Source: Streptomyces sp. CA-278952 (lineage in GTDB: Bacteria; Actinomycetota; Actinomycetes; Streptomycetales; Streptomycetaceae). Taken from it: a stretch of 64,000 nt of DNA. Below the pieces are notes generated by a model. That model saw only the letters and a list, made by a program, of their open reading frames with translations, was not told the origin of the DNA and did not search any database. The position numbers were made by a program, and so were the translations under genes. Every line of letters starts with the position of its first letter. Position 1 is the stretch's first letter. Of the stretch, positions 26,146-41,864 are shown one piece after another. The stretch covers positions 1,550,001 to 1,614,000 of the forward strand of contig NZ_CP112880.1 in the NCBI RefSeq assembly GCF_028747205.1. The letters run 5' to 3'.

Positions 26146-26768
26146 GGTGCGGGCCTCCCGGCGGCGAGCTGGGGCGGTGGCGGGGGTTCGGCGACCCGGG
26201 CGATCTCGTCGGGGGTGCCGAAGGCCCGTACGGTCAGTTCCTCGATCCGCCACACCTGGCGCCGGGCGGCTTCCAGCTCCTCGGGGCGGTCGGCGTCCAG
26301 GACGTGCAGGAAGACGGTGGCGGTGGCCCGGCGCACCTCGATGATGGATCCGCCGGGGACGTTGGAGACGGCGACGGCGGTGGCCGCGAGCATCAGATCG
26401 CTGCGGCAGCGCAGGGGCACCCCGATCACGGCGGCCCGGTGCGGAAGGCCCAGGAAGGTCTGCCGGGTGACCTTCACCCCGGAGGTGTACATGTCGTAGA
26501 GGAGGTAGCCGACCAGGCGCAGGATGCCCCAGAGGTGGAGCCGCAGTCCGAGGTCGACCCGGGGCAGCGGGAAGGCGAGGCAGACGGCGACCGAGACGAC
26601 CAGGCCGGTGAGGACGTTGGCCCAGGCGAGGGTGGACCAGAGCAGGACCCAGATGAGGGTGAGCCAGGCGATCAGCGGCAGGTCCAGCACACGGCGGCGG
26701 GAGCCGAGTTCGCAGCTCAGCGGCGGCAGATCGGCGTTGCGGAACGAGAGGCGCAGGATGCGTTTCAC
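26142..26768 (-). CDS. mrpE: Mrp Na+/H+ antiporter subunit E
   Basis: 208 residues. Two or three N-terminal helices and the conserved RLVGYLLYDMYTSGVKV, then a cytoplasmic part with SNVPGGSIIEVR and FLHVLDAD, are typical of MrpE/MnhE. The protein ends in a Pro-rich tail, making it somewhat longer than usual (about 160-170). Overlaps mrpD and mrpF by 4 bases. Confidence 0.92.
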   Translation of the reverse strand: MKRILRLSFRNADLPPLSCELGSRRRVLDLPLIAWLTLIWVLLWSTLAWANVLTGLVVSVAVCLAFPLPRVDLGLRLHLWGILRLVGYLLYDMYTSGVKVTRQTFLGLPHRAAVIGVPLRCRSDLMLAATAVAVSNVPGGSIIEVRRATATVFLHVLDADRPEELEAARRQVWRIEELTVRAFGTPDEIARVAEPPPPPQLAAGRPAP

Positions 26769-28417
26769 CGGCCCAGCACCTCCTGGACGTAAGGGGTCCG
26801 CTGGAGGATCTCGGCGGCCGTGCGGTCGGTGAAGGCGGTCAGCGGATCGGCGAACACCGTGAAGGCGAGGCCGATCGCGACGGTCGCCGCGGTGGCCGCG
26901 ACCATCGGGCGGGGCAGCCGGCTGGTGGTGATGACGGCCCGTCCGTGCAGGGTCGCGGCGACGGCCTGCCCCGCCGGCCGGTGGGCCGGGGCGATGCCCT
27001 CGTCACCGGTGCCGTGGATCCGGTCGGGGCCCGGGTCCGGGTCGTCGTCGCTGTCGTCGCCGGACTCCAGGACCGTGCCCGCGGCGGCCTGGCCGGGCGG
27101 AGCGGAGCGCCAGAAGGCCAGGTTCCAGACCTTGGCGACCACGTACAGCGTCAGCAGGCTGGTGGCCGCCGAGCCCGCGACCAGCAGCCAGGCCCAGCCG
27201 CCGCCGTCGGCGACGCCGGCGCGCATCAGCCCGAGCTTGCCGATGAAGCCGGACAGCGGGGGGATTCCGGCGAGGTTCATCGCGGGGACGAAGAACAGCA
27301 CGGCGAGCATCGGCGCGGCCCTGGCCAGACCGCCGAGCCGGGTCAGCTCCGTGGTGCCGCCCCGGCGTTCGATGAGCCCGGCGACGAGGAAGAGGGTCGT
27401 CTGGACGGTGATGTGGTGGGCGACGTACACGATGGCCCCGCCGTACGCCTCGCGGGTGGCGAGGCCGATCCCGAAGACCATGTAGCCGATGTGGCTGATC
27501 AGGGTGAAGGAGAGCAGCCGCTTCAGGTCGGTCTGGGCGACCGCGCCGAGGATGCCGATGACCATCGAGGCCAGCGCGATGGCCATCAGGAGGTCGCCGA
27601 GACGGTTGCCGGGGAAGAGCAGGGTCTCGGTGCGGAGCATGCAGTAGACGCCGACCTTGGTGAGCAGTCCGGCGAAGACGGCGGTCACGGGGGCCGGGGC
27701 CGTGGGGTAGGAGTCGGGGAGCCAGGCGGCGAGCGGGAAGACGGCTGCCTTGATCGCGAAGACGGTCAGCAGCAGCGCCTGGATCAGCGTCTGTACGCCG
27801 ATGGGGAGGTCGGCCAGCCGTCCCGCGAGCTGGCCGAAGTTGGCGGTGCCGGTGGCCGCGTACGTCATGGCGATGGCGGTGAGGAAGAGCATCGAGGAGA
27901 ACAGCGAGATGATCACGTAGGTGGAGCCCGCCCGCATCCGGGGTCCGGTGCCGCCGAGGGTGAGCAGGACGAAGCTGGCGACCAGCATGATCTCGAAGCC
28001 GACGTAGAGGTTGACGAGGTCGCCGGCGAGGAAGGTGCAGGAGACCCCGGCGACGAGGATCAGATAGGCGGGGTGGAAGACGGCGAGCGGGGTCTCCTTG
28101 TCCCGGTCGGTCATGCCCTGGCCGAGGGAGTAGACGAGCACGCAGAGCGTGATGGCCGAGGAGACCGTGAGCATCAGCCCGGACAGCCGGTCGGCGACCA
28201 GGGTGATCCCGAGCGGCGGGGCGAAGTCGCCGAGGTGGACGGAGAGCGGGCCCTGCCGGTCGGCGGCGATCATGAGGATCACCGAGAGTGCGAGCACGGC
28301 GGTCAGCACGGCGACGCTGATGAAGCGCTGGAAGCGCCCCAGGCGGGTGCCGAAGGCGAGGCTGAGACCGGTGGCGCACAGGGGCAGCAGCACGGGCAGC
28401 GGGACGAGCGCGTTCAT
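26765..28417 (-). CDS. mrpD: Mrp Na+/H+ antiporter subunit D
   Basis: 550 residues with about 14 membrane helices, homologous to NuoN-type complex I subunits. The proton-channel core (AAVFPLAAWLPDSYPTAPAPV, with its conserved Lys before it) and LLSFTLISHIGYM are clear. A loop near residues 460-500 is rich in Asp (DDSDDDPDPGPD), unlike most MrpD proteins. Start ATG 28417 overlaps the mrpC stop by 4 bases. Confidence 0.93.
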   Translation of the reverse strand: MNALVPLPVLLPLCATGLSLAFGTRLGRFQRFISVAVLTAVLALSVILMIAADRQGPLSVHLGDFAPPLGITLVADRLSGLMLTVSSAITLCVLVYSLGQGMTDRDKETPLAVFHPAYLILVAGVSCTFLAGDLVNLYVGFEIMLVASFVLLTLGGTGPRMRAGSTYVIISLFSSMLFLTAIAMTYAATGTANFGQLAGRLADLPIGVQTLIQALLLTVFAIKAAVFPLAAWLPDSYPTAPAPVTAVFAGLLTKVGVYCMLRTETLLFPGNRLGDLLMAIALASMVIGILGAVAQTDLKRLLSFTLISHIGYMVFGIGLATREAYGGAIVYVAHHITVQTTLFLVAGLIERRGGTTELTRLGGLARAAPMLAVLFFVPAMNLAGIPPLSGFIGKLGLMRAGVADGGGWAWLLVAGSAATSLLTLYVVAKVWNLAFWRSAPPGQAAAGTVLESGDDSDDDPDPGPDRIHGTGDEGIAPAHRPAGQAVAATLHGRAVITTSRLPRPMVAATAATVAIGLAFTVFADPLTAFTDRTAAEILQRTPYVQEVLGR

Positions 28418-29031
28418 CCGTCGGCTCCTCGGTCGCGGGGGTAGCGGTCGTCGGCCTTGGCGTCGCCGTCGCGTGCGTAGTCCTCCGGGTCCGCGCCCAG
28501 CACGTCGTTCCACAGGTTCCCCGAGGCGTCGCGGCCCCGGGCCTGGCGGGCGCGGTCGGCGCGGAGCCGGTCGCGGAGCCGGCGGCGCTCCTCCCGGTAA
28601 CGTTCGCGCTCCTTGGCGGTGGGCTCGGCCCCCGACCGGAACTGTTCGCGCAACTGGGCGCGTTCGCCGAGGACTTCGGCGCGCAGCACGACGCGGCGGT
28701 CCTCCAGGTCGTCGTGGACCTCGTCGGTGCCGGTGATCTGGTGGCTGCGGTAGGCCATGGCCAGCAGGAAGGCGGTGGTGGCCAGGGTGATGACGATGGC
28801 GGTCAGCGCGATGGCCTGGGGCAGCGGGTCGGTGACCCGGCTCAGGGACACCCCGTAGAGCAGGGGTGCGGCGCCGGCCCGGCCGGTGGAGGAGAGGACC
28901 AGCAGGTTGATGCCGTTGCCGAGGATGACGGCGCCGAGCAGGATGCGGGTCAGCGGACGGGTGAGCATGAGGATGCCGCCGACGGCGCAGAGCACGACGG
29001 CGGTGGTGAGGAGCGAGGCGCTGACGATCAT
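28414..29031 (-). CDS. mrpC: Mrp Na+/H+ antiporter subunit C with long charged tail
   Basis: 205 residues. The first 105 are MrpC/NuoK-like, three helices with LLGAVILGNGINLLVLSS and DPLPQAIALTAIVI. MrpC is normally about 110-125 residues; here an extra 90-residue hydrophilic tail rich in Arg, Glu and Asp (probably coiled coil, REERRRLRDRLRADRAR) is added. The tail would be cytoplasmic. Overlaps mrpA and mrpD by 4 bases. Confidence 0.9.
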   Translation of the reverse strand: MIVSASLLTTAVVLCAVGGILMLTRPLTRILLGAVILGNGINLLVLSSTGRAGAAPLLYGVSLSRVTDPLPQAIALTAIVITLATTAFLLAMAYRSHQITGTDEVHDDLEDRRVVLRAEVLGERAQLREQFRSGAEPTAKERERYREERRRLRDRLRADRARQARGRDASGNLWNDVLGADPEDYARDGDAKADDRYPRDRGADG

Positions 29032-31931
29032 CGGGGGGAGCCTCCCGCCTCGGGGCCGCCTTCGGGGGCGAGGACGCCCGCCGCCCGTTCGATCTGCCGG
29101 TCGACCTTGGCGCCGAGGGCCCGCACGATGTCCAGGACGACGCCGAGGACCAGCAGGTAGACGCCGAAGTCGAAGAGGACCGAGGTGCTCAGGTGGTATG
29201 CGCCGAAGACCGGCAGGTGGCCGTAGTACGTGAAGGCGTGCAGGACGGTGCCGTCGGCGAGTCCGAGGAGGCCCACGCCGGTGGAGATGAAGAGGCCGAG
29301 CCCGGTGAAGAGCCCTGGTTGCAGGGGGGCCGCCTGGGCCAGTTCGAAGCGGCCGCCCGCCAGGTAGCGGGTGATCAGGGCGAGTCCGGCCACGAGTCCG
29401 GCGACGAACCCGCCGCCGGGCAGGGACTCGGCGCAGAACAGCAGATAGACCGAGAGCACGAGGATCGGGTGGAACAGCAGCCGGGCCACCACTTCGAAGA
29501 CGATCGAGCGGTGCTCGGGGGCGAGGGTGGCTCCGGCGGCCAGCCAGCCGCGTTCGGGGGCCGCGTCGTCGCCCTGCGGCAGTCTGGAGGCGTGGTGCGC
29601 CGACAGCGACCAGGCGGTGCGGCCCCGCAACTCCTCCTGGACCATGGTGCCTTCGCTGCGGCGGTGCAGGTAGATGAGGCTGGTGACGCCGATCGCGGCG
29701 GCGGCGAGCACGGCGGACTCCCCCATCGTGTCCCAGGCGCGCAGGTCGACGAGGATGGTGGCCACGACGTCCTTGAGCCCGTGGTCGGCGACCTCCTGGA
29801 CCATGGCGGCGCCGGCCGGTTCGGCGGTGCGCGCGGCGGCGGCGACCCACATGCCGACGCCGACGGTGGCGGCCGCCGCGAGGGCCATCGGGATGCGGGC
29901 GGCCCGCCGCCAGGTGCTGACGGTCTCGTGGAAGTGGACGGGCATCCGGCGCAGGACCAGCACGAAGACGATCATCGAGACGGTCTCGACGCAGAACTGG
30001 GTGAGCGCCAGGTCGGGCGCTCCCTGGACGACGAAGAGCAGGGCTGCGCCGTAACCGGTGAGGCCGGCCAGGACGACGGCCTTCATGCGCCGGCGCACCG
30101 TCAGGCAGAGCAGGGCGGCGGCGCAGGTCAGGGTGGCGACCGCGCCCTGGAGCGGGTTGTCCCAGAGCCGGGGGCGCACCGCCCCGACCCAGGGGGTGTC
30201 GACCACGAGGACGGTGAGCTGTCCGGCGAGCATGACGAGGAGGGTGGTGGCGAGGTACACGGAGAGGGAGCCGCGCTGGATGAAGCCGGTGACCTGGAGG
30301 GCGAGACGTTCCTGCCCGAGCAGCAGATGGCCGAAGACGCTGTCGGCGGTGGGCCAGGCGATCCGGCGGGAGAGCCGGGTGACGTGGGCGCGGCCGAGGA
30401 AGAGCACGGCGCCGGCGGCCCAGGCGAGGGCCGACAGGAGCAGCGCGGTACCGAACCCGTGCCAGAGGGCGAGGTGGTACGGCTTCCCCTCGGCCGGGAA
30501 CGTGTCGGCGTACGCGCCCAGCAGCCGGTCGGTCCAGCCGACGCCGGGGCCGAGGACCAGGCCGAGGGCCGCGAGCAGGGCGGGCGGGGCGAGGAAGGCC
30601 CACCCGACGCGGTGGACGGGGGTGTCGGGGACCCCGGGCTTGCGGGCGAACGCGCCCCAGACGAACCGCAGGCTGTAGGCGGTGGTCAGCGCGGACCCGG
30701 CGACGACGACGGCCAGCGCCCACCGGTCGGCGGCGGAGCCGTGCAGCAGCGCCTCGAACGCGGCCTCCTTCGCGGCGAAGCCGAGCAGCGGCGGGAGGGC
30801 GGCCATGGAGGCGGCGGCGAGGGCGCCGACGCCGGCGACGTACGGCAGGGAGCGGCCGACGCCGGACAGTTCGCGCAGGTCACGGGTGCCGGCGGCATGG
30901 TCGACGATGCCGGTGACGAGGAACAGCGGGGCCTTGAAGAGGGCGTGCCCGAGGATCAGCGCCGCGGCGGCCAGCGCGGCGTCGCGATTGCCGGTCCCGG
31001 CGAGCAGGATGAGGAACCCGAGTTGGCTGACGGTCCCGTAGGCGAGGACGAGCTTGAGGTCGTTCAGGCGCAGCGCGCGCCAGCCGCCGAGCAGCATGGT
31101 CGCGCCGCCGAGGACGAGCACGACGGGTTTCCAGACGGGGACGTCGGCGAAGGCGGGGGCGAGCCGGGCGACCAGGTAGACGCCGGCCTTGACCATCGCG
31201 GCGGCGTGCAGATAGGCGCTGACGGGGGTCGGAGCGGCCATGGCGTTCGGCAGCCACATGGAGAACGGCCAGATCGCGGACTTCGACAGGGCCCCGCACA
31301 GCACGAGGACGACGGCGACGGACACGGCGAGGGTCGTCTCGGGCGGGTCGGCGACGATCGCGGAGATCCGGTACGTACCGGCGGCCTGACCGAGGATCAG
31401 GAAGCCGACGAGCATGGCGAGGCCGCCGAACGTGGTGACGACGAGGGCCTGGAGGGCGGAGCGGCGGCTGTGCCGGTGTTCGCTGCCGTGGCCGATCAGC
31501 AGGTAGGAGAAGACCGTGGTCAGTTCCCAGAACACATAGAGCGTGATCAGGTCGTCGGCGAGGACGAGGGCGAGCATCGCGCCCGCGAAGGCGAGGAGAT
31601 TCCCCGCGAAGCGGCCCAGCTGCGGGGTGTCGTCCGTGAAGTAGGAGGCGCAGTAGAGCAGAACGAGCGCGCCGACCCCGGCGGCGAGCAGCACCATCAG
31701 TTCGGCCAGCGCGTCCAGGCGCAGGTCGAGGGCGACGCCGTAGTCCGGGATCCACTGCCAGGACCAGGTGTCCGCGCCCGAGGACGCTACGGTGCTCCAG
31801 CGGGTGAGGGCCCAGACGGTGGCCGCCGCCGGGGGCAGGGCCAGCACGACGAAGGCCCGTCGGCCGAGCCGGTGCACCAGCGGGCCCGCGCAGGCCGCGA
31901 GCGCGAAGTGGGCGACGATGAGCGCGATCAC
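29028..31931 (-). CDS. mrpA: Mrp Na+/H+ antiporter subunit A fused to subunit B
   Basis: 967 residues. The first about 650 are MrpA/NuoL-like with the channel motifs KSAIWPFSMWLPNAMAAPTPVSAYLHAAAMVKAG; a middle MbhD/MbhE-like part (GAPDLALTQFCVETVSM) follows; the last about 170 are MrpB-like (SLPGGGFVAGLVAGLAL). Thus A and B are one polypeptide and no separate mrpB exists. With C-G it forms an antiporter that exchanges Na+ for H+ and supports salt and alkali tolerance. The predicted start is GTG 31931, without a good Shine-Dalgarno. Confidence 0.92.
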   Translation of the reverse strand: MIALIVAHFALAACAGPLVHRLGRRAFVVLALPPAAATVWALTRWSTVASSGADTWSWQWIPDYGVALDLRLDALAELMVLLAAGVGALVLLYCASYFTDDTPQLGRFAGNLLAFAGAMLALVLADDLITLYVFWELTTVFSYLLIGHGSEHRHSRRSALQALVVTTFGGLAMLVGFLILGQAAGTYRISAIVADPPETTLAVSVAVVLVLCGALSKSAIWPFSMWLPNAMAAPTPVSAYLHAAAMVKAGVYLVARLAPAFADVPVWKPVVLVLGGATMLLGGWRALRLNDLKLVLAYGTVSQLGFLILLAGTGNRDAALAAAALILGHALFKAPLFLVTGIVDHAAGTRDLRELSGVGRSLPYVAGVGALAAASMAALPPLLGFAAKEAAFEALLHGSAADRWALAVVVAGSALTTAYSLRFVWGAFARKPGVPDTPVHRVGWAFLAPPALLAALGLVLGPGVGWTDRLLGAYADTFPAEGKPYHLALWHGFGTALLLSALAWAAGAVLFLGRAHVTRLSRRIAWPTADSVFGHLLLGQERLALQVTGFIQRGSLSVYLATTLLVMLAGQLTVLVVDTPWVGAVRPRLWDNPLQGAVATLTCAAALLCLTVRRRMKAVVLAGLTGYGAALLFVVQGAPDLALTQFCVETVSMIVFVLVLRRMPVHFHETVSTWRRAARIPMALAAAATVGVGMWVAAAARTAEPAGAAMVQEVADHGLKDVVATILVDLRAWDTMGESAVLAAAAIGVTSLIYLHRRSEGTMVQEELRGRTAWSLSAHHASRLPQGDDAAPERGWLAAGATLAPEHRSIVFEVVARLLFHPILVLSVYLLFCAESLPGGGFVAGLVAGLALITRYLAGGRFELAQAAPLQPGLFTGLGLFISTGVGLLGLADGTVLHAFTYYGHLPVFGAYHLSTSVLFDFGVYLLVLGVVLDIVRALGAKVDRQIERAAGVLAPEGGPEAGGSPR

Positions 31932-32183: not shown

Positions 32184-32585
32184 TCACGGCAGGACCGCGA
32201 CCCCGTCGATCTCGATCATCGCCTGCTCGTCCCAGAGCCGGGCCACCCCGATGACGGCCATCGCCGGGTAGTCGCGTCCCGCGAGCCTGCGCCAGATCCG
32301 GCCCAGTTCGGGGGCGTGGGAGCGGTAGTCGGCGATGTCCGTGGCGTAGACGGTGACCCGGGCGAGGTCGGCGGGGGCGCCGCCGGCGGCGTGGAGAGCG
32401 GTGAGCAGATTGCCCAGGGCGACGGTGAACTGGTCGGGCAGGGTGGCCCCGACGACCTTTCCGTCCGGGTCGAGTGCGGTCTGCCCGGCGAGGAAGACCA
32501 GGTGCCCGCCGGTGGCGACGACCGCGTGGCTGAAGCCGGTGGGCGGGGAGAGTTCGGCCGGGTTGATCCGGTGGGACGGACTCAT
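32184..32585 (-). CDS. RidA/YjgF-family enamine/imine deaminase
   Basis: 133 residues. INPAELSPPTGFSHAVVATGG, FLAGQTALDPDGKVVG, VTVYATDIADY and the final IEIDGVAVLP are RidA-family sequence; however the catalytic-type Arg normally seen in the xxGxxR region must be the one in VGVARLWDE. RidA proteins hydrolyse reactive enamines and imines. Position behind an acyl-CoA dehydrogenase (ATGA overlap) and inside a 2-aminobenzoyl-CoA-type cluster suggests that it helps remove the amino group from ring-reduction products. Confidence 0.87.
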   Translation of the reverse strand: MSPSHRINPAELSPPTGFSHAVVATGGHLVFLAGQTALDPDGKVVGATLPDQFTVALGNLLTALHAAGGAPADLARVTVYATDIADYRSHAPELGRIWRRLAGRDYPAMAVIGVARLWDEQAMIEIDGVAVLP

Positions 32586-33883
32586 GCGGGCGGCTCCTGG
32601 GTGAGGCCCGCGGGCTCCACGGGCTCCTGAGTGCGGCCCGCGGGCTCCACGCACTCCTGGGCGGCGGGCTGCCGGGAGAGAGGCTGCTGGGCGAGGGGTT
32701 GCTGGGCGAGGGGCTGGTCGAGGGACCACTCGGCACGGGGCTGCTGGGCGGGGGACTCGGACCGCTCGGCGCCGTTCGCGTACAGCTCCTTGGCGATGAT
32801 GGTGCGCTGCACCTCGCTCGCGCCCTCGTAGATCCGCGGCGCGCGGACCTCGCGGTAGAGGTGTTCGAGCAGATGGCCCCGGCGCAGGGCGCGGGCGCCG
32901 TGCAGCTGGACGGCGGCGTCGACGACGTACTGCGCGGTCTCGGTGGCGTACAGCTTGGCCATCGCCGCCCGGCGCGGCACGCCGCTCTCCCCCGCGTCGT
33001 ACGCGGCGGCCGCCGCGTACACCAGGAGGCGGGCGGCCTCGGTGCGGGTGGCCATCTCCGCGACCTGGTGCGAGACGGCCTGGAGGTCGCTCAGCGGGCC
33101 GCCGAACGCGGTGCGGTGGGCGGTGTGGTCCAGGGTCGCGTCCAGGGCGGCGCGGGCCATCCCCACGGCGAACGCCCCGACGCTGGGCCGGAAGAGGTTG
33201 AGGGTGTTCATCGCGACGCGGAAGCCCCGGTCGGGCTCGCCGAGCACGTCGTCCGCGGTGACCGGTACGCCGTTGAACTCCAGGGTCCCGATGGGGTGCG
33301 GGGAGAGCATGTCGAGGGCGGCGCCGGTGAGTCCGGGGCGGTCGGACGGGACCAGGAACGCGGTGATGCCGCGAGACCCCGCCCCGGGCGTCGTCCGGGC
33401 GAAGACCACCGCGAAGTCGGCCTCGGGGGCGTTGGAGATCCAGCACTTCTCGCCGGTGAGCGCCCATCCCGCCGGGGTGTGTTCGGCGGCCAGGCTCAGG
33501 GCCGCCGCGTCGGAACCCGCACCCGGCTCGCTCAGCGCGAAGGCGGCGACGGCCCGCCCGGCCCGCACCTCGGGGAGCCAGCGCTCGCGGTGGGCGGCGG
33601 TGCCGGCCTGGACGATCGGGGTGGTGCCGAGGCCCTGGAGGGCGAGGGCGGTCTCGGCCTCGGTGCAGCCCCGGGCCAGGGACTCGCGCAGCAGGCACAG
33701 GTCCAGCGCCCCGGAGCCCAGCATCCGGCCGAGGAGGCCCAGCTCGCCGAGAGCGGCCAGCAGTGGGCGGTTGACGCGCCCGGGCTCCCCCTTCTCCGCC
33801 AGCGGGCGCAGCTCCTGTGCGGCAAGGGTGCGGAGCTCCTCGCACCAGGCGATGTGTTCTGGTTCGAGGGAGAATGCCGTCAT
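32582..33883 (-). CDS. Acyl-CoA dehydrogenase with repetitive C-terminal tail
   Basis: 433 residues. FALSEPGAGSDAAAL and CWISNAPEADFAVVFA are flavin-binding motifs; QLHGARALRRGHLLEHLYREVRA-like sequence and RIYEGASEVQR contain the conserved C-terminal site with the catalytic Glu. The enzyme oxidises an acyl-CoA to the 2,3-enoyl-CoA. The last 50 residues are not part of the fold; they consist of PLAQQ and VEPAGxTQEP repeats. Start 33883 has GAGAGG 7 bases upstream. It heads the minus-strand operon with ridA, read from a promoter at 33978-34005. Confidence 0.9.
   Translation of the reverse strand: MTAFSLEPEHIAWCEELRTLAAQELRPLAEKGEPGRVNRPLLAALGELGLLGRMLGSGALDLCLLRESLARGCTEAETALALQGLGTTPIVQAGTAAHRERWLPEVRAGRAVAAFALSEPGAGSDAAALSLAAEHTPAGWALTGEKCWISNAPEADFAVVFARTTPGAGSRGITAFLVPSDRPGLTGAALDMLSPHPIGTLEFNGVPVTADDVLGEPDRGFRVAMNTLNLFRPSVGAFAVGMARAALDATLDHTAHRTAFGGPLSDLQAVSHQVAEMATRTEAARLLVYAAAAAYDAGESGVPRRAAMAKLYATETAQYVVDAAVQLHGARALRRGHLLEHLYREVRAPRIYEGASEVQRTIIAKELYANGAERSESPAQQPRAEWSLDQPLAQQPLAQQPLSRQPAAQECVEPAGRTQEPVEPAGLTQEPPA
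32605..32715 (-). repeat. Tandem repeats encoding the acyl-CoA dehydrogenase tail
   Basis: GGCCCGCGGGCTCCACG occurs at 32605-32621 and 32635-32651 (30-base period), and a 15-base unit GCTGCTGGGCGAGGG/GTTGCTGGGCGAGGG follows near 32681-32710. Both keep the reading frame and give the Pro/Gln/Glu-rich repeats at the protein end. Confidence 0.75.
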
Positions 33884-33889
33884 GGCGGC

Positions 33890-33976
33890 GCCTCTCTTGT
33901 CGCGTCGTGTCCCGTCGTGTCGCGTGCCCTGTCGCGTCGCATGGCATCACGTCGCATCGCATCGCATCGCACGTCA
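33890..33976 (-). repeat. Degenerate GCGAC/GATGC pentamer repeat filling the acyl-CoA dehydrogenase leader
   Basis: On the plus strand this is a run of GTCGC, GTCGT and ATCGC pentamers, including three consecutive ATCGC units around 33955-33970. It occupies nearly the whole predicted 5' leader (about 88 bases) between the minus-strand promoter and the start at 33883. No coding frame is evident. Confidence 0.7.
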
Positions 33977-33977
33977 T

Positions 33978-34021
33978 GTCTTATCGCGGACCGTTGACTA
34001 CCGTCACCCAAACGATACGCT
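33978..34021. promoter_or_regulatory. Divergent promoter with shared operator, copy A
   Basis: TTGAC-TACC-GTCAC (33994-34007) is a palindrome with one arm mismatch. On the plus strand it supplies the -35 TTGACT (33994-33999), with -10 TACGCT at 34016-34021, for the CoA ligase. On the minus strand it supplies -35 TGACGG, followed 17 bases later by -10 TAAGAC (33978-33983), for the acyl-CoA dehydrogenase. CGATACG (34013-34019) lies beside it. The same palindrome, the same minus-strand -35 and spacing, and CGATACG occur at 41194-41237. The likely binder is the PaaX-type regulator encoded nearby. Confidence 0.72.
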
Positions 34022-34048
34022 CCAGAGGCGACAAGGGGGCGATCCTTC

Positions 34049-35761
34049 ATGGAGCCGAATTCCTCGCCGAACACGCCCACAGCCGCCGCCGACGCGTCCG
34101 TACGCGTCCCCGGCGCGTATCCCGAGCCGTCCGGGAACGCCGCGGGCGCCCACGCCGACACGTTCACGCGCGACCATCTCCCGCCGCCGGAGCAGTGGCC
34201 CGTGCTCCTCCTGGACGATCCCGCGCCGCGCTACCCCGACCGGCTGAACTGCGGGCACGAACTCCTGGACCGGACCGTGGAGGACCGGGGCGCGGACCGC
34301 CCCGCGCTGCTCTCCGGCGACGGGAGCGTCTGGAGCTACGGAGAGCTGCGGGAGACGGTGGACCGCATCGCCCATGTGCTGACGGACGACCTGGGCGTCG
34401 TGCCGGGCAACCGGGTGCTGCTGCGCGGGCCGACGACGCCCTGGCTGGCCGCCTGCTGGCTCGCCGTCATGAAGGCGGGCGCGGTCGCCGTCACCGTACT
34501 GGCGCAGGCGCGCGCGGCGGAGCTGGCCACCATCTGTTCGCTGGCGCGGATCGGCCACGCCCTGTGCGACGCCCGGTCGGCGCGGGACCTGGCGGAGGCG
34601 GATGTGGAGGGCCTGCGGGTCACCCTGTTCGGCGGGGGAGCGCCCGGGGACCTGACCCGGCTGGCCGAGGCCAGGACCGGGCCGTACCGGGCGGTCGACA
34701 CCGCCGCCGACGAGGTCGCGCTCATCGCGTTCACCTCGGGGACCACCGGACGCCCCAAGGGCTGCATGCACCTGCACCGGGACCTCCTGGCCATCGCCGA
34801 CACCTTCTCCGAGCACGTGCTGCGCCCCTGTGCGGACGACGTGTTCGCGGGCAGTCCGCCGCTGGGCTTCACGTTCGGCCTGGGCGGGCTGCTGGTCTTC
34901 CCGCTGCGGGCCGGGGCCTCGACGCTGCTGCTGGAGCAGGCGGGCCCGCGGCAGCTGCTGCCCGCCCTGGTCCGGCACCGGGTCTCGGTGCTGTTCACCG
35001 CGCCCACGGCCTACCGCACCATGCTCGGGCAGCTGGACGGCCACGACCTCTCGGCGCTGCGGCGCTGCGTGTCGGCCGGGGAGAACCTCCCCGAGGCGAC
35101 CTGGCAGGCCTGGTACGAGGCGACGGGGCTGCGCATCATCAACGGCATCGGGGCCACCGAACTGCTCCACATCTTCATCTCCGCCGCCGACGACGCGATC
35201 CGGCCGGGCACGACGGGGGTGCCCGTGCCGGGGTGGCAGGCCCGGGTGGTGGACGAGCGCGGGGACGAACTGCCCGACGGCGAGGCGGGACTGCTGGCCG
35301 TACGCGGTCCGGTCGGCTGCCGCTACCTCTCCGACCCCCGGCAGACGGAGTACGTCCGGCACGGCTGGAACATGACCGGCGACACCTTCGTCCGCGAACC
35401 GGACGGCTACTTCCGCTACGTGGCCCGCGCCGACGACATGATCATCTCCTCCGGCTACAACATCGCGGGCCCCGAGGTGGAGGACGCCCTGCTGCGCCAT
35501 CCGGAGGTCGCGGAGGCCGCCGTGGTGGGCCGGGCGGACGCACTGCGCGGCGAGATCGTGGTGGCGCACGTGGTGCTGCGGCAAGGCTCGGAGCAGACCG
35601 CGGACTCGCTGCGCGCCCACATGAAGGCCAACCTGGCCCCGCACAAGTGCCCGCGCGTCTTCGTCTTCCAGGAGTCGCTGCCCCGTACGGCCACCGGAAA
35701 ACTCCAGCGGTTCCTGCTGCGGGACCGGCCCGACTCTCCCCCGGCCCGGCCTCTAGAGTGA
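34049..35761 (+). CDS. Benzoate/2-aminobenzoate-CoA ligase-type AMP-binding enzyme
   Basis: 570 residues. The P-loop FTSGTTGRPKGCMH (about residue 230), the adenine-binding NGIGATELLHIF, GWNMTGDTFV and the C-terminal catalytic Lys in RTATGKLQRF are all present. NGIGATELLHIFIS is typical of the benzoate-CoA ligase subgroup of the ANL superfamily. It would make aryl-CoA from aromatic acid, ATP and CoA. With the monooxygenase/reductase gene nearby, 2-aminobenzoate is the best substrate guess; salicylate or benzoate remain possible. AAGGGGG precedes ATG 34049; paaX follows after 4 bases. Confidence 0.87.
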   Translation: MEPNSSPNTPTAAADASVRVPGAYPEPSGNAAGAHADTFTRDHLPPPEQWPVLLLDDPAPRYPDRLNCGHELLDRTVEDRGADRPALLSGDGSVWSYGELRETVDRIAHVLTDDLGVVPGNRVLLRGPTTPWLAACWLAVMKAGAVAVTVLAQARAAELATICSLARIGHALCDARSARDLAEADVEGLRVTLFGGGAPGDLTRLAEARTGPYRAVDTAADEVALIAFTSGTTGRPKGCMHLHRDLLAIADTFSEHVLRPCADDVFAGSPPLGFTFGLGGLLVFPLRAGASTLLLEQAGPRQLLPALVRHRVSVLFTAPTAYRTMLGQLDGHDLSALRRCVSAGENLPEATWQAWYEATGLRIINGIGATELLHIFISAADDAIRPGTTGVPVPGWQARVVDERGDELPDGEAGLLAVRGPVGCRYLSDPRQTEYVRHGWNMTGDTFVREPDGYFRYVARADDMIISSGYNIAGPEVEDALLRHPEVAEAAVVGRADALRGEIVVAHVVLRQGSEQTADSLRAHMKANLAPHKCPRVFVFQESLPRTATGKLQRFLLRDRPDSPPARPLE

Positions 35762-35765
35762 TCAC

Positions 35766-36587
35766 GTGGCCGAGTTGCGCACCCCCCGTTCCCTGATCGT
35801 CACGCTCTACGGCGCCTACGGCCGCCCGCCGGACGGCGCACCGTTCGCCGTGTCGGAGCTGATCCGTCTGCTGCACGCCGTCGGTGTCGACGCCCCTTCC
35901 GTACGCTCGTGCGTCTCGCGGCTGAAGCGGCGCGGGCTGCTGGTGGCCGCCCGTGCGGCGGACGGTTCGGCGGGGTACGCGCTGTCGCCGGACGCCCGGC
36001 AACTGCTGGACGACGGGGACCGGAGGATCTACGGGCGGCCCGGGCCGCGGCTCTCCGAAGGCTGGGTGCTCGCGGTGTTCTCCGTGCCCGAGGCGGAGCG
36101 CAACAAGCGCCATCTGCTGCGCTCCCGGCTGGCCCGGCTCGGCTTCGGTACGGCCGCGCCCGGGGTGTGGATCGCGCCGGCCGGGCTGTACGAGGAGACC
36201 CGGCACACCCTGGAGCGGCTCGGACTCGCCCCGTACGTGGACCTGTTCCGCGGCGAGCACCTCGGCTTCGCCGCCACCCGCGAGGCGGTGGCCCGCTGGT
36301 GGGACCTGCCGGCGGTGGCGCGGCTGCACCGCGAGTTCCTGGAGCTGCACGAGCCGGTGCTGCGGGACTGGGAGGCGTCCGGGGACACCGAGGACGCGCC
36401 CCGCCCGCAGACCGCCTACCGGGACTATCTGCTGGCCCTGGACTCATGGCGGCAACTCCCCTATGCGGACCCGGGTCTGCCGTCGCAGCTGCTGCCCGGG
36501 GACTGGCCGGGCGGGCGGTCGGCGGAGGTGTTCGGCCGGCTGCACGAGCGGCTGCGGGACGCCGGGGAGCGGTACGTGCGGCCGTGA
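35766..36587 (+). CDS. PaaX-family transcriptional regulator
   Basis: 273 residues. The N-terminal winged helix (RTPRSLIVTLYGAYGR, then SVRSCVSRLKRRGLL) and the central EGWVLAVFSVPE and GFGTAAPGVWIAP segments define PaaX-like repressors, which sense aryl-CoA (phenylacetyl-CoA in the model protein). It is 4 bases behind the CoA ligase, so it is made with the enzyme that generates its probable effector. It is the natural candidate to bind the palindromes at 33994 and 41210. GTG start at 35766. Confidence 0.88.
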   Translation: MAELRTPRSLIVTLYGAYGRPPDGAPFAVSELIRLLHAVGVDAPSVRSCVSRLKRRGLLVAARAADGSAGYALSPDARQLLDDGDRRIYGRPGPRLSEGWVLAVFSVPEAERNKRHLLRSRLARLGFGTAAPGVWIAPAGLYEETRHTLERLGLAPYVDLFRGEHLGFAATREAVARWWDLPAVARLHREFLELHEPVLRDWEASGDTEDAPRPQTAYRDYLLALDSWRQLPYADPGLPSQLLPGDWPGGRSAEVFGRLHERLRDAGERYVRP

Positions 36588-36643
36588 CCCCGCCGGGGTG
36601 AAATCCAGGTGCCCCGGGCCCCGGCCCACGGGCAGGATGAGGC

Positions 36644-37474
36644 ATGACCTGGACCCTCACGAACGACGTCGCCACGTTCCTCGCCGCGGCCGGCGCGTCG
36701 CTCGCCGCGCGGCCCGTCGAGCACACGGTGGCGCTGACCGTCACCGAGCGGCTGAGATGTGCGGGCCCGCACCACTACGGCGGGGGCGATCCGGTGCTCG
36801 GCTGGTGGCGCGGGGCGGACGGGGCGGTGGCGGGGACCGTGCTGCGCACGCCGCCGCATCCCGCGCTGCTGAACGCCGTGCCGGCCAAGGCGGTGGGTCC
36901 GCTGGCCGACGCCCTGGGTTCGGGCCAGGATCTGGACGCCGTCAACGCGGACCGGGACACCGCGGCGCTGCTGGCCGCCCGGCTCCCCGGCTACCGGACC
37001 GAGCAGGAGCAGCGGCTGTACCGGCTGGGCCCGGCGCGACCGCCCTCCCCCGCGCCGGGGGGCCGGGCCAGGGCGGCGACGCCGGCGGACCGGGCGCTGC
37101 TGGTGGAGTGGGTGCGCGGGTTCGCCGAGGAGACCGGGCAGTCGAAGTCCTCGGCCGAGTGGCTGGTGGACGAGGGCACGGAACGCGGGGCGCTCACTCT
37201 CTGGGAGAACGGCGGGGCTCCGGTGGCTCTCGCCGGCCGCTCCCGGATGCTGGCGGGCACGGTGCGGGTGACCTTGGTGTACACCCCGCCGGGGTTGCGC
37301 GGCCGGGGGTACGCGGCCGCCGTGACGGATGAGGCCGGGCGGGCGGCCCGGGAGGCGGGGGCGACGGAGGTCGTGCTCTTCGCCGACCTCGCCAATCCGA
37401 CGAGCAACGGCGTGTATCTGCGCATCGGCTACGAAGCGGTGGCGGACCGGCTGCTGTTGACGAGGACCTCGTGA
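36644..37474 (+). CDS. GNAT-family N-acetyltransferase
   Basis: 276 residues. The C-terminal half is a GNAT domain with the acetyl-CoA loop in TPPGLRGRGYAAAVT and the NPTSNGVYLRIGYE ending; the N-terminal half resembles the degenerate first domain of tandem GNAT proteins. Acceptor unknown. The stop overlaps the start of a hypothetical gene by 4 bases. Confidence 0.85.
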   Translation: MTWTLTNDVATFLAAAGASLAARPVEHTVALTVTERLRCAGPHHYGGGDPVLGWWRGADGAVAGTVLRTPPHPALLNAVPAKAVGPLADALGSGQDLDAVNADRDTAALLAARLPGYRTEQEQRLYRLGPARPPSPAPGGRARAATPADRALLVEWVRGFAEETGQSKSSAEWLVDEGTERGALTLWENGGAPVALAGRSRMLAGTVRVTLVYTPPGLRGRGYAAAVTDEAGRAAREAGATEVVLFADLANPTSNGVYLRIGYEAVADRLLLTRTS

Positions 37475-37977
37475 GCGCGGAGCCCGTGTCGGCGGAGCCG
37501 GTGGCCGAGGAGCCCGTGACCGTCCCCGTGGCTGAGGAGCCCGCGTCGGCGGAGCCGCTGTGGCTCGTCGCCGCGAACGTGGTGCGGTGGCGGCGGTACG
37601 GCGACGGCGGGCAGGAACTGAGGCCCGGGACCAAGTCGTACCGGGGCGGGTCGAAGGTGCACGTCGTCGGCGCCTACGGGGGCATGGGGCACGAGCAGCT
37701 GACCACCGTCGGGCGCGGCCGGCACACCGGGGCGTACATCACCATCGACATGGCGACCCGCAACCTCCACACCTTCCGGCCCGTCGCGGTGTACAGCCCG
37801 GCGGTACTGCGCCGCGTGGCGGCGGTGGGCGTCGACGGATCATGGGCCACGCGGGAGCATGCGGAGGAGCTGGCCGCCCTGCTCGGGCGCCTGGCCCCGG
37901 CCTACCGCGAGGAACACTGGGGCGGTGTGCCGCACCCGGTCCCCTGCCGGTGCCACGGCTGCCTCAGCCCAGCGTGA
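37471..37977 (+). CDS. Hypothetical protein with repetitive N-terminus and Cys-rich end
   Basis: 168 residues, family not recognised. The first 30 are repeats of SAEPV and AEEPV, probably disordered. The rest is globular with GTKSYRGGSKVHVVGAYGGMGHEQLTTVGR and ends PVPCRCHGCLSPA, three Cys and a His that could hold a metal. It is coupled (GTGA) to the GNAT gene and its 3' end overlaps the monooxygenase/reductase gene on the other strand by 14 bases. Confidence 0.65.
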   Translation: MSAEPVSAEPVAEEPVTVPVAEEPASAEPLWLVAANVVRWRRYGDGGQELRPGTKSYRGGSKVHVVGAYGGMGHEQLTTVGRGRHTGAYITIDMATRNLHTFRPVAVYSPAVLRRVAAVGVDGSWATREHAEELAALLGRLAPAYREEHWGGVPHPVPCRCHGCLSPA

Positions 37978-40300
37978 GCCGGGGCTTCGGTCCGTCGGTG
38001 CGGCCGGTGGGCGGGGGACGGCTGCCCGCACCGTACGGAAGGGGCCAGGGAACGCCGGGGCCGCTGTAGCCCTGTTCGGCCGCCGCGTGCAGGGTCCAGT
38101 GCGGGTCGTACAGATGGGGGCGGGCCAGGGCGCAGAGGTCGGCGCGGCCTGCCAGGAGCAGGGAGTTGACGTCGTCCCAGGAGGAGATCGCGCCGACCGC
38201 GATGACGGGGACGCCGACGGTGTTGCGGATCCGGTCGGCGTACGGGGTCTGGTAGGAGCGGCCGTACTCGGGGCGCTCATCGGCCACGACCTGGCCGGTG
38301 GAGACGTCGATGGCGTCGGCCCCGTGGTCGGCGAAGGCGCGGGCGATCGTGACGGCGTCCTCGGCGTCGGTGCCGCCCTCGGCCCAGTCGGTGGCCGAGA
38401 TCCGCACGGTCATCGGCCGCTCCCCCGGCCAGACTTCACGGACGGCGTCGAAGACCTCCAGGGGGAAGCGGAGCCGCCCGGCCAGCGCCCCGCCGTGGGC
38501 GTCGGTGCGGCGGTTGGTGAGCGGGGACAGGAAGCCGGAGAGCAAGTAGCCGTGGGCGCAGTGGAGCTCGAGGAGGTCGAAGCCGGAGTCGGCGGCGCGC
38601 CGGGCGGCCGCCACGAACTGCCTGCGCACGGCGTCCAGTCCGGCCCGGTCCAGCTCCGCGGGGACCTGACTGACGCCCGGCTCGTACGGCAGCGGGGAGG
38701 CGGCCGTCAGCGACCAGTTGCCGCCCTCCAGGGGCTGGTCGATGCCCTCCCACATCAGCTTCGTGGAGCCCTTGCGGCCGGAGTGGCCGAGCTGCACGCC
38801 GATGGCGGCGCCGGGTGCGGAGGTGTGGACGAAGTCGGTGATCCGCCGCCAGGCGGCGGCCTGTTCGTCGTTCCACAGACCCGTGCAGCCGGGGGTGATA
38901 CGGCCCTCGGGGCTGACGCAGACCATCTCGGTCATGGTGAGTCCCGCGCCGCCGAGCGCCCGGGCCCCGAGGTGGACGAGGTGGAAGTCGGCGGGCAGCC
39001 CGTCGGTGGCCGCGTACATGTCCATGGGCGAGACGACGACGCGGTTGCGCAGTTCGAGGCCGCGCAGGCGCAGCGGGGTGAACATCGGCGGGGTGTCCGG
39101 CGGGCAGCCGAACTCCTCCTCGACGGCGGCGGTGAACGAGGCGTCGCGCAGCCGGAGGTTGTCGTGCGTGACCCGGCGGCTGCGGGTGAGCAGGTTGAAC
39201 GCGAAGCGGCGGGGCGGCTGGTCCACGTAGGTGGCCAGCTCCTCGAACCAGCGCAGGCTGGCGGCGGCGGCGCGCTGGGTGGAGGCGACGACCGGGCGGC
39301 GCTCGGCCTCGTACGCGACGAGGGCCGTCGGCAGGTCCGGCTGTTCCTCGACGCAGGCGGCCAGCGCGAGGGCGTCCTCGACGGCGAGCTTGGTGCCGGA
39401 GCCGATGGAGAAATGGGCGGTGTGGGCCGCGTCGCCGATGAGCACCGTGCTGCCGTGGGACCAGCGGGAGTTGGTGACCGTGCGGAAGGCGAGCCAGGAG
39501 GATCTGTTGCCGCGCAGCGGGCGGCCGTCCAGCGCTTCGGTGAAGAACTTGGCGCAGCGGGCGGTGGATTCGGCCGCGTCGCAGGTGTCGAGCCCGGCGG
39601 CACGCCAGACCTCCTCGCGCATCTCGACGATGACGGTGGAGGCGTCTGCCGCGTACGGGTAGCCGTGCAACTGCATGACGCCGTACGGGGTTTCGGCGAT
39701 CTCGAAGCGGAAGGCGTCGAGCGCGAAGTCGGCGGCGAGCCAGATGTAGCGGTTGCGGTGCTCGGTGATGGTCGGGCCGAAGGATGTGGCGTGGGCCGTG
39801 CGGGTGGCGCTGTGCACCCCGTCGGCGGCGATGACCAGGTCGTGGTGGGCGGCGAGCTCGGCGGTGGGCGGGGCCGGGACGCGGAAGCGGAGGTCGACGC
39901 CGAGGCCGGCGCAGCGCTCGTGGAGGATCTCCAGGAGCCGGCGGCGGCCGAGGGCGGCGAAGCCGTGGCCGCCGGAGGTGTGGGTCCGGCCCCGGTGGAC
40001 GATGTCGATGGTGTCCCAGCGGACGAACTCGGCTCTCAGCGCCCGGTACACCTCGGGGTCGGCGTGTTCGATGCCACCCAGGGTCTCGTCGGAGAGGACG
40101 ACGCCGAAGCCGAAGGTGTCGTCGGGGGCGTTGCGCTCGAAGACGGTGACGGCGCGGTCCGGGTCGAGCCGTTTGAGGAGGGCCGCGGCGTAGAGCCCGC
40201 CGGGGCCGCCGCCGACGACCGCGATCCGGTGCACCGACGAGGAGCCCCGGCGGGGCCCGGCCCCGGCGTCAGGGGGCCGGGCTGCCTCGGGGGCGGGCAC
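37964..40300 (-). CDS. Bifunctional 2-aminobenzoyl-CoA (or salicylyl-CoA) monooxygenase/reductase
   Basis: 778 residues, two fused enzymes. Residues 1-about 380 are a flavoprotein hydroxylase (IAVVGGGPGGLYAAALLK, VLSDETLGGI, LIGDAAHTAHFSIGSG). Residues about 400-770 are an Old Yellow Enzyme-type domain (FTPLRLRGLELRNRVVVSPMDMY, QLGHSGRKGS, HCAHGYLLSGFLSPLTNRR). This fusion is found in 2-aminobenzoyl-CoA monooxygenase/reductase and salicylyl-CoA 5-hydroxylase, which oxygenate and partly reduce the ring. GTG 40300 is chosen because GGGGAGG lies 5 bases upstream; an in-frame ATG at 40318 has no such site and would overlap the hydratase gene. Confidence 0.9.
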   Translation of the reverse strand: MPAPEAARPPDAGAGPRRGSSSVHRIAVVGGGPGGLYAAALLKRLDPDRAVTVFERNAPDDTFGFGVVLSDETLGGIEHADPEVYRALRAEFVRWDTIDIVHRGRTHTSGGHGFAALGRRRLLEILHERCAGLGVDLRFRVPAPPTAELAAHHDLVIAADGVHSATRTAHATSFGPTITEHRNRYIWLAADFALDAFRFEIAETPYGVMQLHGYPYAADASTVIVEMREEVWRAAGLDTCDAAESTARCAKFFTEALDGRPLRGNRSSWLAFRTVTNSRWSHGSTVLIGDAAHTAHFSIGSGTKLAVEDALALAACVEEQPDLPTALVAYEAERRPVVASTQRAAAASLRWFEELATYVDQPPRRFAFNLLTRSRRVTHDNLRLRDASFTAAVEEEFGCPPDTPPMFTPLRLRGLELRNRVVVSPMDMYAATDGLPADFHLVHLGARALGGAGLTMTEMVCVSPEGRITPGCTGLWNDEQAAAWRRITDFVHTSAPGAAIGVQLGHSGRKGSTKLMWEGIDQPLEGGNWSLTAASPLPYEPGVSQVPAELDRAGLDAVRRQFVAAARRAADSGFDLLELHCAHGYLLSGFLSPLTNRRTDAHGGALAGRLRFPLEVFDAVREVWPGERPMTVRISATDWAEGGTDAEDAVTIARAFADHGADAIDVSTGQVVADERPEYGRSYQTPYADRIRNTVGVPVIAVGAISSWDDVNSLLLAGRADLCALARPHLYDPHWTLHAAAEQGYSGPGVPWPLPYGAGSRPPPTGRTDGPKPRLTLG

Positions 40301-40302
40301 GG

Positions 40303-41130
40303 TTACCTCCCCTGCCATTTCGGCGGCCGTTTCTCGGTGAAGGCGGCGTGGAACTCGGCGTAGTCCTCGCCGTGCATCAGAAGGGCCTGGGTGTTGGCGT
40401 CCAGCTCGACGGAGGCGGCGAGCGGCATGTCCAGCTCGGCGGTGAGCAGGGCCTTGGTCTGGGCGAGCGCGAGGGCGGGGCCGTCGGCGAGGCGGCGGGC
40501 CAGCTCGGCGGCGCGCTCGGCGGCCCTGCCCTCTTCGGCCAGCTCGCTGATCAGCCCGATGCGCTCCGCCTCGGGGGCGCGGACGGCGTCCCCGAGCATC
40601 AGGAGCCGGGTGGCGTGGCCGAGGCCGACGACCCGGGGCAGCAGATAGGCCGCGCCCATGTCCCCGCCGGAGAGGCCGACGCGGGTGAAGAGGAAGGAGA
40701 AGCGGGCCGACGGGTCGGCGATCCGGAAGTCCGCCGCCAGGGCCAGCACGGCTCCTGCTCCGGCGGCGACGCCGTGGATGGCGGCGATGACGGGGAAGGG
40801 GCACTCCCGCAGAGCCCGGACGACCTGGCCGGTCATGCGGTTGAAGTCGAGGAGCTGCGCGGTGTCCATGGCGAGCGTGGCGCCGATGATCTCGTCGACG
40901 TCGCCGCCGGAGCAGAACCCGCGCCCCTCACCGGCGAGAACGAGGGCGCGGACGGAACGTTCCCGGGACAGCTCGGCGAGGAGGTCGCGCAGATCCGCGT
41001 AGGCGCCGAAGGTGAGCGCGTTGAGCTTCTCGGGGCGGGCCAATGTGACGGTGGCCACACCGTCGTCCCGGGTCAGCCGCAGATGACGCCATTCCTCGGT
41101 GCTCGGGGCCGAGCTGGGAAACGGGCTCAT
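40303..41130 (-). CDS. Enoyl-CoA hydratase/isomerase family protein
   Basis: 276 residues. The crotonase oxyanion-hole motifs GRGFCSGGDVDEI and AAIHGVAAGAGAVLALAADFRIA, and the later GLSGGDMGAAYLLPR with an acidic residue, are conserved. It should hydrate the enoyl-CoA made during breakdown of the dearomatised ring. It is the first gene of the operon with the monooxygenase/reductase, 2 bases apart, and is read from the operator-bearing promoter at 41194-41237. Start 41130 has AAGGGG upstream. Confidence 0.9.
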   Translation of the reverse strand: MSPFPSSAPSTEEWRHLRLTRDDGVATVTLARPEKLNALTFGAYADLRDLLAELSRERSVRALVLAGEGRGFCSGGDVDEIIGATLAMDTAQLLDFNRMTGQVVRALRECPFPVIAAIHGVAAGAGAVLALAADFRIADPSARFSFLFTRVGLSGGDMGAAYLLPRVVGLGHATRLLMLGDAVRAPEAERIGLISELAEEGRAAERAAELARRLADGPALALAQTKALLTAELDMPLAASVELDANTQALLMHGEDYAEFHAAFTEKRPPKWQGR

Positions 41131-41193
41131 GGAGGGGTCCCCTTCAGCGATCGGGCTGGCTGCCGGCCATGCGCGGGTCGCGTTCCGCATCCG

Positions 41194-41237
41194 AAGTTAT
41201 CACCCTTACGTGACTGCCGTCACGAGGTCGCGATACG
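41194..41237 (-). promoter_or_regulatory. Promoter with shared operator, copy B
   Basis: GTGAC-TGCC-GTCAC (41210-41223) is a perfect 5-base-arm palindrome. On the minus strand it gives -35 TGACGG, then 17 bases, then -10 TAACTT (complement of 41194-41199), placing the transcript start about 57 bases before the hydratase ATG. CGATACG lies at 41231-41237. All three features match copy A at 33978-34021, so both operons should answer to one regulator. Confidence 0.72.
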
Positions 41238-41414: not shown

Positions 41415-41864
41415 GTGCCGCCCGACGTCCCCGTCCCCGCCTCCTGGCGCATCGCCCTGCCGCACTCCACCGCGGCCGTGCCGATCGCCCGCGCTCTCAT
41501 CCGCACGGCCCTGTCGGACATCGACGCCCCGGCCGACAGCGACACCGCCGAGCTGCTGACGGCCGAGCTGGTGGCCAACGCCGTCGAGCACACGCTGGGC
41601 GGTGAGCCCATCGAGCTGGTCGTGGAGCTGCTGCCCACCGGCTGCCAGGTCGAGGTGCACGACCGCGACCCCGCCCCGCCGGGCGACCTGTCCCGGCCGC
41701 AACCGGGCTGCGAGGTCGATCCCTGGCAGGAGCACGGCCGCGGCCTGCTGCTGATCCGGACCCTCAGCTCCGCGTGCGGTCACCGCACCACGGAGCACGG
41801 CAAGGCCGTCTGGTTCACGCTTCCGGCGATACCGGCGCAGCCGGGTCCGTCCCCGGGGAGCTGA
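41415..41864 (+). CDS. ATP-binding anti-sigma/RsbW-like histidine-kinase-fold protein
   Basis: 149 residues. A lone HATPase_c domain: N-box ELLTAELVANAVEH, then DRDPAPP (G1 position) and EHGRGLLLIRTLSS (G2). Streptomyces carry many such small RsbW-type proteins, which bind anti-anti-sigma factors or sigma factors. The binding partner is not in the window. GTG start at 41415. The 3' end overlaps the convergent transporter gene by 50 bases. Confidence 0.82.
   Translation: MPPDVPVPASWRIALPHSTAAVPIARALIRTALSDIDAPADSDTAELLTAELVANAVEHTLGGEPIELVVELLPTGCQVEVHDRDPAPPGDLSRPQPGCEVDPWQEHGRGLLLIRTLSSACGHRTTEHGKAVWFTLPAIPAQPGPSPGS

Follow-up and report, generated by a model that had tools for sequence, protein, structure and literature searches.

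Two sites predicted as operators of a conserved PaaX regulon in an aromatic-acid gene cluster of Streptomyces

The window analysed here, a stretch of 64,000 nucleotides of Streptomyces sp. CA-278952 (contig NZ_CP112880.1, positions 1,550,001 to 1,614,000, in a genome of 8.2 Mb and one contig), contains an aromatic-acid gene cluster in which two sites about 7 kb apart, A and B, share a palindrome. Judging from the sequences, and with a probability of about 85%, we take A and B to be a pair of operators for the cluster's own PaaX-type repressor (35766-36587), which would repress both operons and itself until an aryl-coenzyme A (aryl-CoA) releases it. This would be a conserved two-operator PaaX regulon of an already known type of control, with a longer operator, a corrected promoter assignment and an unexpected group of repressor-less clusters. 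The sites, in window coordinates, are:

33995..34006, core palindrome A, TGACTACCGTCA
41211..41222, core palindrome B, TGACTGCCGTCA
33982..34019, predicted operator A, TATCGCG-N6-TGACTACCGTCA-N6-CGATACG, in the register of the 38-bp dyad
41198..41235, predicted operator B, full 38-bp dyad, TATCACC-N6-TGACTGCCGTCA-N6-CGCGATA
33994..34021, plus strand, predicted ligase-paaX promoter, -35 TTGACT at 33994-33999, spacer of 16, -10 TACGCT at 34016-34021
41194..41222, minus strand, predicted hydratase-hydroxylase promoter, -35 TGACGG at 41222-41217, spacer of 17, -10 TAACTT at 41199-41194

At the centre of a 38-bp dyad, TATNNCG-N6-TGACNNNNGTCA-N6-CGNNATA, stands the 12-bp palindrome. A departs from this dyad at 2 and B at 1 of the 18 specified bases, and 20 Markov resamples of the window yielded no dyad as good (mean best 5.5). 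Relatives of the locus were taken from a PaaX protein search as the best 80 of 473 confirmed candidate loci; all 80 are Streptomyces and kin to each other, so the sequences behind the footprint counts are not independent. L070 has no A stretch and L010, L045, L061 and L070 have no B stretch, and these are omitted from the denominators. The exact TGACNNNNGTCA stands at the A place in 79 of 79 loci and at the B place in 75 of 76, while an additional copy between -4000 and +9000 of paaX occurs in only four of the 80 (L033, L039, L053, L083). An earlier note on this DNA, which first proposed the regulon, had staked it on the palindrome recurring in orthologous clusters, and it does recur. Counted over 78 distinct A and 76 distinct B sequences (window included), the conserved blocks far exceed the palindrome; numbered from the first T of the core, they run from -13 to +27 at A (41 bp) and from -18 to +24 at B (43 bp). 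Conservation drops outside them, save in the leader following A, where a handful of positions (+33 to +36 and +45) stay above 90%. The promoter-distal arms are conserved where no promoter pattern requires them: the left arm of A reads T[AG]TCGCG in 80/80 (strict TATCGCG in 70) and the right arm of B reads TAT[CT]GCG in 73/76 (strict in 52). The operator looks longer, at 38 bp, than the palindrome. Among plasmid DNA, relatives of A amounted to one unrelated match only.

The earlier note placed its TGAC-N4-GTCA copies at 33994-34007 and 41210-41223; both are present, with starts given one base early, and the 13-mers are TGACTACCGTCAC at 33995-34007 (A) and TGACTGCCGTCAC at 41211-41223 (B). Its minus-strand TGACGG-N17-TAAGAC (A) and TGACGG-N17-TAACTT (B) are both there, as is CGATACG on the opposite side (34013-34019 and 41231-41237), but the distance from the core differs by 2 bp, with B further out, so the match of the copies is not spacing-true on that side. 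The note also held that the match was unlikely by chance. The 13-mer alone is unremarkable in the window, with 5 places at up to 2 mismatches against 3.4 expected. The exact 13-mer occurs three times in the genome against once for a reversed-letter control. What settles the point in the note's favour is the conservation in relatives. The third genomic 13-mer (4223912) was dismissed as chance, having no flanking arms, a best dyad of 7/18 mismatches in its 3-kb locus and no cluster genes.

The promoter patterns were tallied at 80 copies of A and 76 of B, the window among them. TTGAC and TANNNT at 16 bp are found on the plus strand at A in 80/80, and TGACNN-N17-TANNNT on the minus strand at B in 76/76. 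TANNNT at 15-19 bp occurs in only 2/80 on the minus strand at A and 5/76 on the plus strand at B, and we rejected promoters on these two strands. The proposed pairing of the two minus strands is thus not supported, whereas the idea of a single operator-promoter module used twice is, provided that A is read on the plus strand and B on the minus. Read along transcription, this module consists of TATCGCG, N6, TGAC-N4-GTCA with its first half as the -35, and then, 7 (A) or 9 (B) bases on, a GATA that runs into the -10. For A plus and B minus, the downstream parts agree best with a 2-bp shift (0.50, against 0.26 without it), and the upstream arms agree at 0.51, against 0.34 for A minus and B minus. 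Counter to this pairing, the core alone agrees better in A minus and B minus (0.89 against 0.75), whose downstream parts also agree at 0.42 unshifted. The proposal that copy A forms the -35 of the divergent ligase-paaX operon is supported, and because A lies inside that predicted promoter autoregulation is likely.

These patterns also bear on an account in which there are only promoters here, with the palindrome being a -35 box joined by its mirrored copy and the arms supplying the -10 boxes for divergent promoters. Both promoter elements of A plus and of B minus do fall within the conserved blocks, and in 77 of 79 loci the dehydrogenase gene could be assigned a divergent position beside A, with its start at a median of 73 bp from the core. 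However, the arms and half-sites on A minus and B plus are nearly always conserved in spite of the rarity of TANNNT there, and the dyad spacing is fixed in homologues, so that we give this account very little probability.

Predicted control by PaaX can be compared with the distribution of the gene over 295 Streptomyces genomes, where the dyad was allowed up to 2 mismatches, PaaX proteins were accepted at E 1e-50 and an orthologue was defined by E below 1e-85 or a split gene (G342 and G031 were each scored as orthologues in two pieces). The tallies were counted by eye from two tables. The dyad occurs in 253 genomes, mostly exactly two in each, against 5 of 295 for the reversed-letter control. 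It is present in 248 of the 268 genomes with a PaaX orthologue, in four of the eight with only a distant paralogue, and in one (G008) of the 19 with no PaaX at the threshold. Among the 30 genomes that have two PaaX, 16 contain more than two dyads, against 6 of the 265 others. The genome-wide search for further members that the earlier note called for gives two dyads and one PaaX homologue in the genome of the window. Its view that the module marks the regulon of the local PaaX agrees with this as far as a small two-site regulon beside paaX and a dyad that tracks paaX are concerned, and binding by PaaX is what we infer from them. Extra members in genomes with one PaaX were put down to chance or coding sequence, both for the third dyads of G060, G423 and G440, which share nearly one sequence, and for the single extra dyads in G380, G444 and G466.

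Another regulator, a distant protein of any family, could instead read the sites, with paaX being merely a neighbour. This would suit four genomes (G072, G075, G023 and G441) that hold both sites without a paaX in the cluster, and G008 may be a fifth. Yet the dyad follows paaX over the genus, an extra PaaX accompanies extra dyads, similar dyads lie beside diverged PaaX genes in Rhodococcus, in other Streptomyces clusters and in another family, and the four clear exceptions each have an unlinked PaaX paralogue. On balance we regard another regulator as improbable.

The diverged PaaX genes provide a further view of the dyad. The set has 25 loci with 41-52% identity, made up of 19 from Streptomyces (L216-L234), L208 of G089 and five plasmid loci (L211-L215). 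The degeneracy of the arms, TATNNCG, was picked after the hits in these loci had been viewed, so the comparison is not blind and the contrast between spacings is the fairer test. At the true spacing 9/25 loci have a dyad with at most 3/18 mismatches and 17/25 one with at most 4/18. With 13 other arm spacings the corresponding numbers are 0-1 and 0-2, with 9 other core spacings 0 and 0-1, and with reversed letters 1 and 1. A shift in spacing thus abolishes the enrichment of the dyad beside these genes. The best dyad is equalled by at most 2/60 resamples in 15/25 loci, and the best of all are those of G089 (0 mismatches, upstream of the ligase), R. erythropolis BG43 (1 mismatch at either of two sites) and G039 (1 and 2). 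Near the second PaaX of G039 two dyads stand 81 bp apart (L218:6997 and L218:7078), in a genome with six dyads in total, which looks like a larger regulon for the PaaX paralogue. A variant dyad with TCAC for TGAC and a GTCAATA arm is confined, among these observations, to a single PaaX subclade that takes in Streptantibioticus and several Streptomyces (L215:8382, L221:10823, L223:7241, L229:8156, L233:6980, L234:10151).

A shorter pattern, run over 197 genomes of the class, yielded 16 loci from outside the genus (L175-L190, each of about 2-3 kb), with 6 further places left out. Only two of these have a dyad with at most 3 mismatches, and both adjoin a 61-63% identical ligase and belong to other actinobacterial families: L179, with 1 mismatch, has it between a divergent paaX and ligase, and L180, with 3, next to the ligase homologue. 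The remaining 14 of the 16 have no paaX or close ligase (L175 has a dyad with 4 mismatches, L186 a 28% ligase match).

The closest known system is that of MeqR2, a PaaX-type repressor of the Arthrobacter sp. Rue61a plasmid pAL1. Its operator is said, in a 2013 J Bacteriol paper, to be 5'-TGACGNNCGTcA-3', a 12-bp palindrome with anthraniloyl-CoA as the effector, and MeqR2 reportedly has four operators, at which anthraniloyl-CoA relieves binding. The plasmid encodes two PaaX-type proteins, each 44% identical to that of the window, and one of them adjoins an aryl-CoA ligase (53%) and the same type of bifunctional hydroxylase (61%). The link to anthraniloyl-CoA pathway genes lies in the PRK08255 type of the hydroxylase and in the homology of hydroxylase, ligase and PaaX to those of pAL1, and the substrate is a presumed one. 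In the pAL1 stretch TGAC-N4-GTCA occurs 3 times against 0.5 expected: TGACGACCGTCA lies upstream of the PaaX gene that neighbours the hydroxylase, while in the quinaldine region TGACGGGCGTCA and TGACGTGCGTCA separate a monooxygenase gene from a divergently oriented gene of the xanthine dehydrogenase type, positions that fit the reported MeqR2 operator. The cores TGACTACCGTCA and TGACTGCCGTCA match the TGAC and CGTCA of the reported TGACGNNCGTcA without the left-half G of TGACG, and cores of the TGACG type do occur on pAL1. The window differs in having two predicted operators rather than the reported four, in its strong fixed-distance arms, which are weak in pAL1 (best dyad 4 mismatches), and in its enoyl-CoA hydratase and acyl-CoA dehydrogenase genes.

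The weak arms of pAL1 (4/60 resamples are as good) and the reported 12-bp MeqR2 palindrome would both agree with a variant, compatible with PaaX control, in which PaaX reads the core only, leaving the TATNNCG arms to another factor or to bending of the DNA. The fixed 6-bp gap between arm and core across PaaX clades speaks against it, as does the E. coli PaaX site, and we find the variant rather unlikely. The E. coli protein is of the same family as the window regulator (PDB 8a39, 60 bits), and PMC9493321 describes divergent operons, autoregulation, an aryl-CoA effector and the site TGATTC(N27)GAATCA. The paaA site of E. coli K-12 is TGATTC-N27-GAATCG, with arms that span 39 bp against 38 bp in the window. 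This is a lead rather than a test; only span and inversion agree with the TATCGCG/TATCAC arms and TGAC-N4-GTCA core of the window. Two plasmid-encoded PaaX-related regulators take part in the control of quinaldine degradation, according to PMC3534580, and Actinomycetes phenylacetate clusters mostly carry a TetR-type PaaR, according to PMC13186573. By titles and the openings of abstracts we recognised no publication on this regulon or on MeqR2, in a search with most subscription journals outside it.

Several observations weigh against control by PaaX through these dyads. The dyad is missing at up to 2 mismatches in 20 of the 268 orthologue genomes, and L063 has a paaX but no B core. In the right arm of A, GATA is 2 bp nearer the core than in B and off the dyad register. 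Eight of the 25 diverged loci are at chance level, including three with ligase and hydroxylase (L216, L225, L227), and for pAL1 and R. qingshengii the best dyad is equalled by 4/60 resamples. In the E. coli paa locus there is no dyad of the window type (best 6 mismatches). A further case is that of G072, G075, G023 and G441, whose clusters have ligase, dehydrogenase, hydratase, hydroxylase and both sites but no paaX between ligase and hydroxylase (L205 of G072, L206 of G075, L235 of G023, and L236). G008 also has both sites and no PaaX was found in it; its ligase and hydroxylase contigs end where paaX would lie, which makes it a possible fifth case.

The A site of G023 and G441 is the same in both, with 3 dyad mismatches, and a GNAT-like gene follows the ligase in L205 (by Pfam) and L206 (by eye). 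In a tree of the hydroxylase, where the closest rows to the window are Streptomyces anulatus JCM 4721 and relatives, L205, L206 and L235 are set apart with branch support of 99 and 100; nearly all rows of this tree were selected for having paaX, and G441 is not in it. The paaX-less clusters of the four genomes represent three lineages. All four genomes carry an unlinked PaaX homologue (46-52% identity). No dyad was found near these homologues (best 5-7 mismatches within 18 kb), and no shared pathway among 10 proteins encoded beside them in L217, L224 and L226, which include alanine racemase, imelysin, phosphoesterase, AraC-like, major facilitator superfamily (MFS) and thymidine kinase proteins. 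The link to the paralogue is suggestive only, because the four genomes were recognised among those whose best PaaX is the paralogue, and a case without a paralogue would resemble G008.

We can tentatively put forward a wider proposal, which we think possible but doubtful. The 38-bp operator would have four half-sites, TATNNCG-N6-TGAC-N4-GTCA-N6-CGNNATA, read by two PaaX dimers of this clade or by one wide-wing dimer, and E. coli PaaX may share this architecture. In three or more lineages of Streptomyces the gene for the repressor would have left the cluster while both sites stayed and an unlinked paralogue with no dyad near it took control. Recent loss of paaX is the plain alternative to such control in trans. 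The repressor-less clusters that retain their sites are a natural experiment.

For the window we infer binding and repression by PaaX, the effector and the limits of the operons, and the mechanism could work as follows. With no inducer, PaaX on the 38-bp dyads would block RNA polymerase. The dyad core takes in the predicted -35 and some of the spacer, at A for the plus-strand promoter of ligase-paaX-GNAT and at B for the minus-strand promoter of hydratase-hydroxylase. When an aromatic acid enters, basal ligase would form its CoA thioester, most likely anthraniloyl-CoA and possibly salicylyl-CoA. The thioester would bind PaaX and free both promoters, and the level of paaX would rise too and shut the system again. 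The outcome would be a compact genus-wide regulon with two operators and one repressor for an aromatic-acid pathway of Streptomyces, and the operator of a regulator family that has received little study would be more sharply defined. Having two clean targets, such a repressor could also be put to use in Streptomyces as an inducible promoter system.

The genes of the cluster are:

32582..33883, minus strand, acyl-CoA dehydrogenase, divergent from A
34049..35761, plus strand, aryl-CoA ligase, AMP-binding, best NCBIfam match the benzoate-CoA ligase family, below cut-off
35766..36587, plus strand, PaaX-type regulator, presumed repressor, domains PaaX, PaaX_M and PaaX_C
36644..37474, plus strand, GNAT acetyltransferase, likely the final gene of the ligase-paaX unit
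37964..40318, minus strand, bifunctional salicylyl-CoA 5-hydroxylase/oxidoreductase-type protein, NF006101/PRK08255 above cut-off, homologous to the pAL1 hydroxylase
40303..41130, minus strand, enoyl-CoA hydratase family protein, NF006107/PRK08258 above cut-off on the frame 40303-41190

The regulator is a member of the PaaX family, with Pfam scores for its winged helix-turn-helix (PaaX), Cas2-like (PaaX_M) and C-terminal (PaaX_C) domains of 64.7, 89 and 78.9 bits against cut-offs of 24.8, 24 and 22. Its score of 140.7 bits for TIGR02277, the phenylacetate repressor PaaX equivalog, falls below the cut-off of 264.55. The winged helix-turn-helix stretch around VRSxxSRLKRRG is similar in the PaaX orthologues and nearly all aligned homologues. 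The PRK08255-type hydroxylase scores 1203 against a cut-off of 1078. No paa epoxidase subunit is among the cluster proteins examined, and the pathway resembles, from the proteins encoded, the anthraniloyl-CoA/salicylyl-CoA route; anthranilate is the first candidate substrate and salicylate the second. We favour the hydratase start at 41130 over that at 41190 because the latter is upstream of the predicted transcript start, and the hydroxylase would start at 40318 or 40300, either overlapping or adjoining the hydratase stop.

Other features of the neighbourhood were noted in passing. Between A and the dehydrogenase start (33890-33975), short near-repeats of CGATG, CGACG and CGACA units make up most of the leader, as judged by eye. 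To the right of B a gene for an HATPase_c_2 domain protein lies on the plus strand (41415-41864), the strand of B on which the promoter pattern is so infrequent (5/76). Further away, at 26765-31931 on the minus strand, there are frames of a multisubunit antiporter-like complex (Proton_antipo_M twice, MnhB, MbhD, MbhE, Oxidored_q2).

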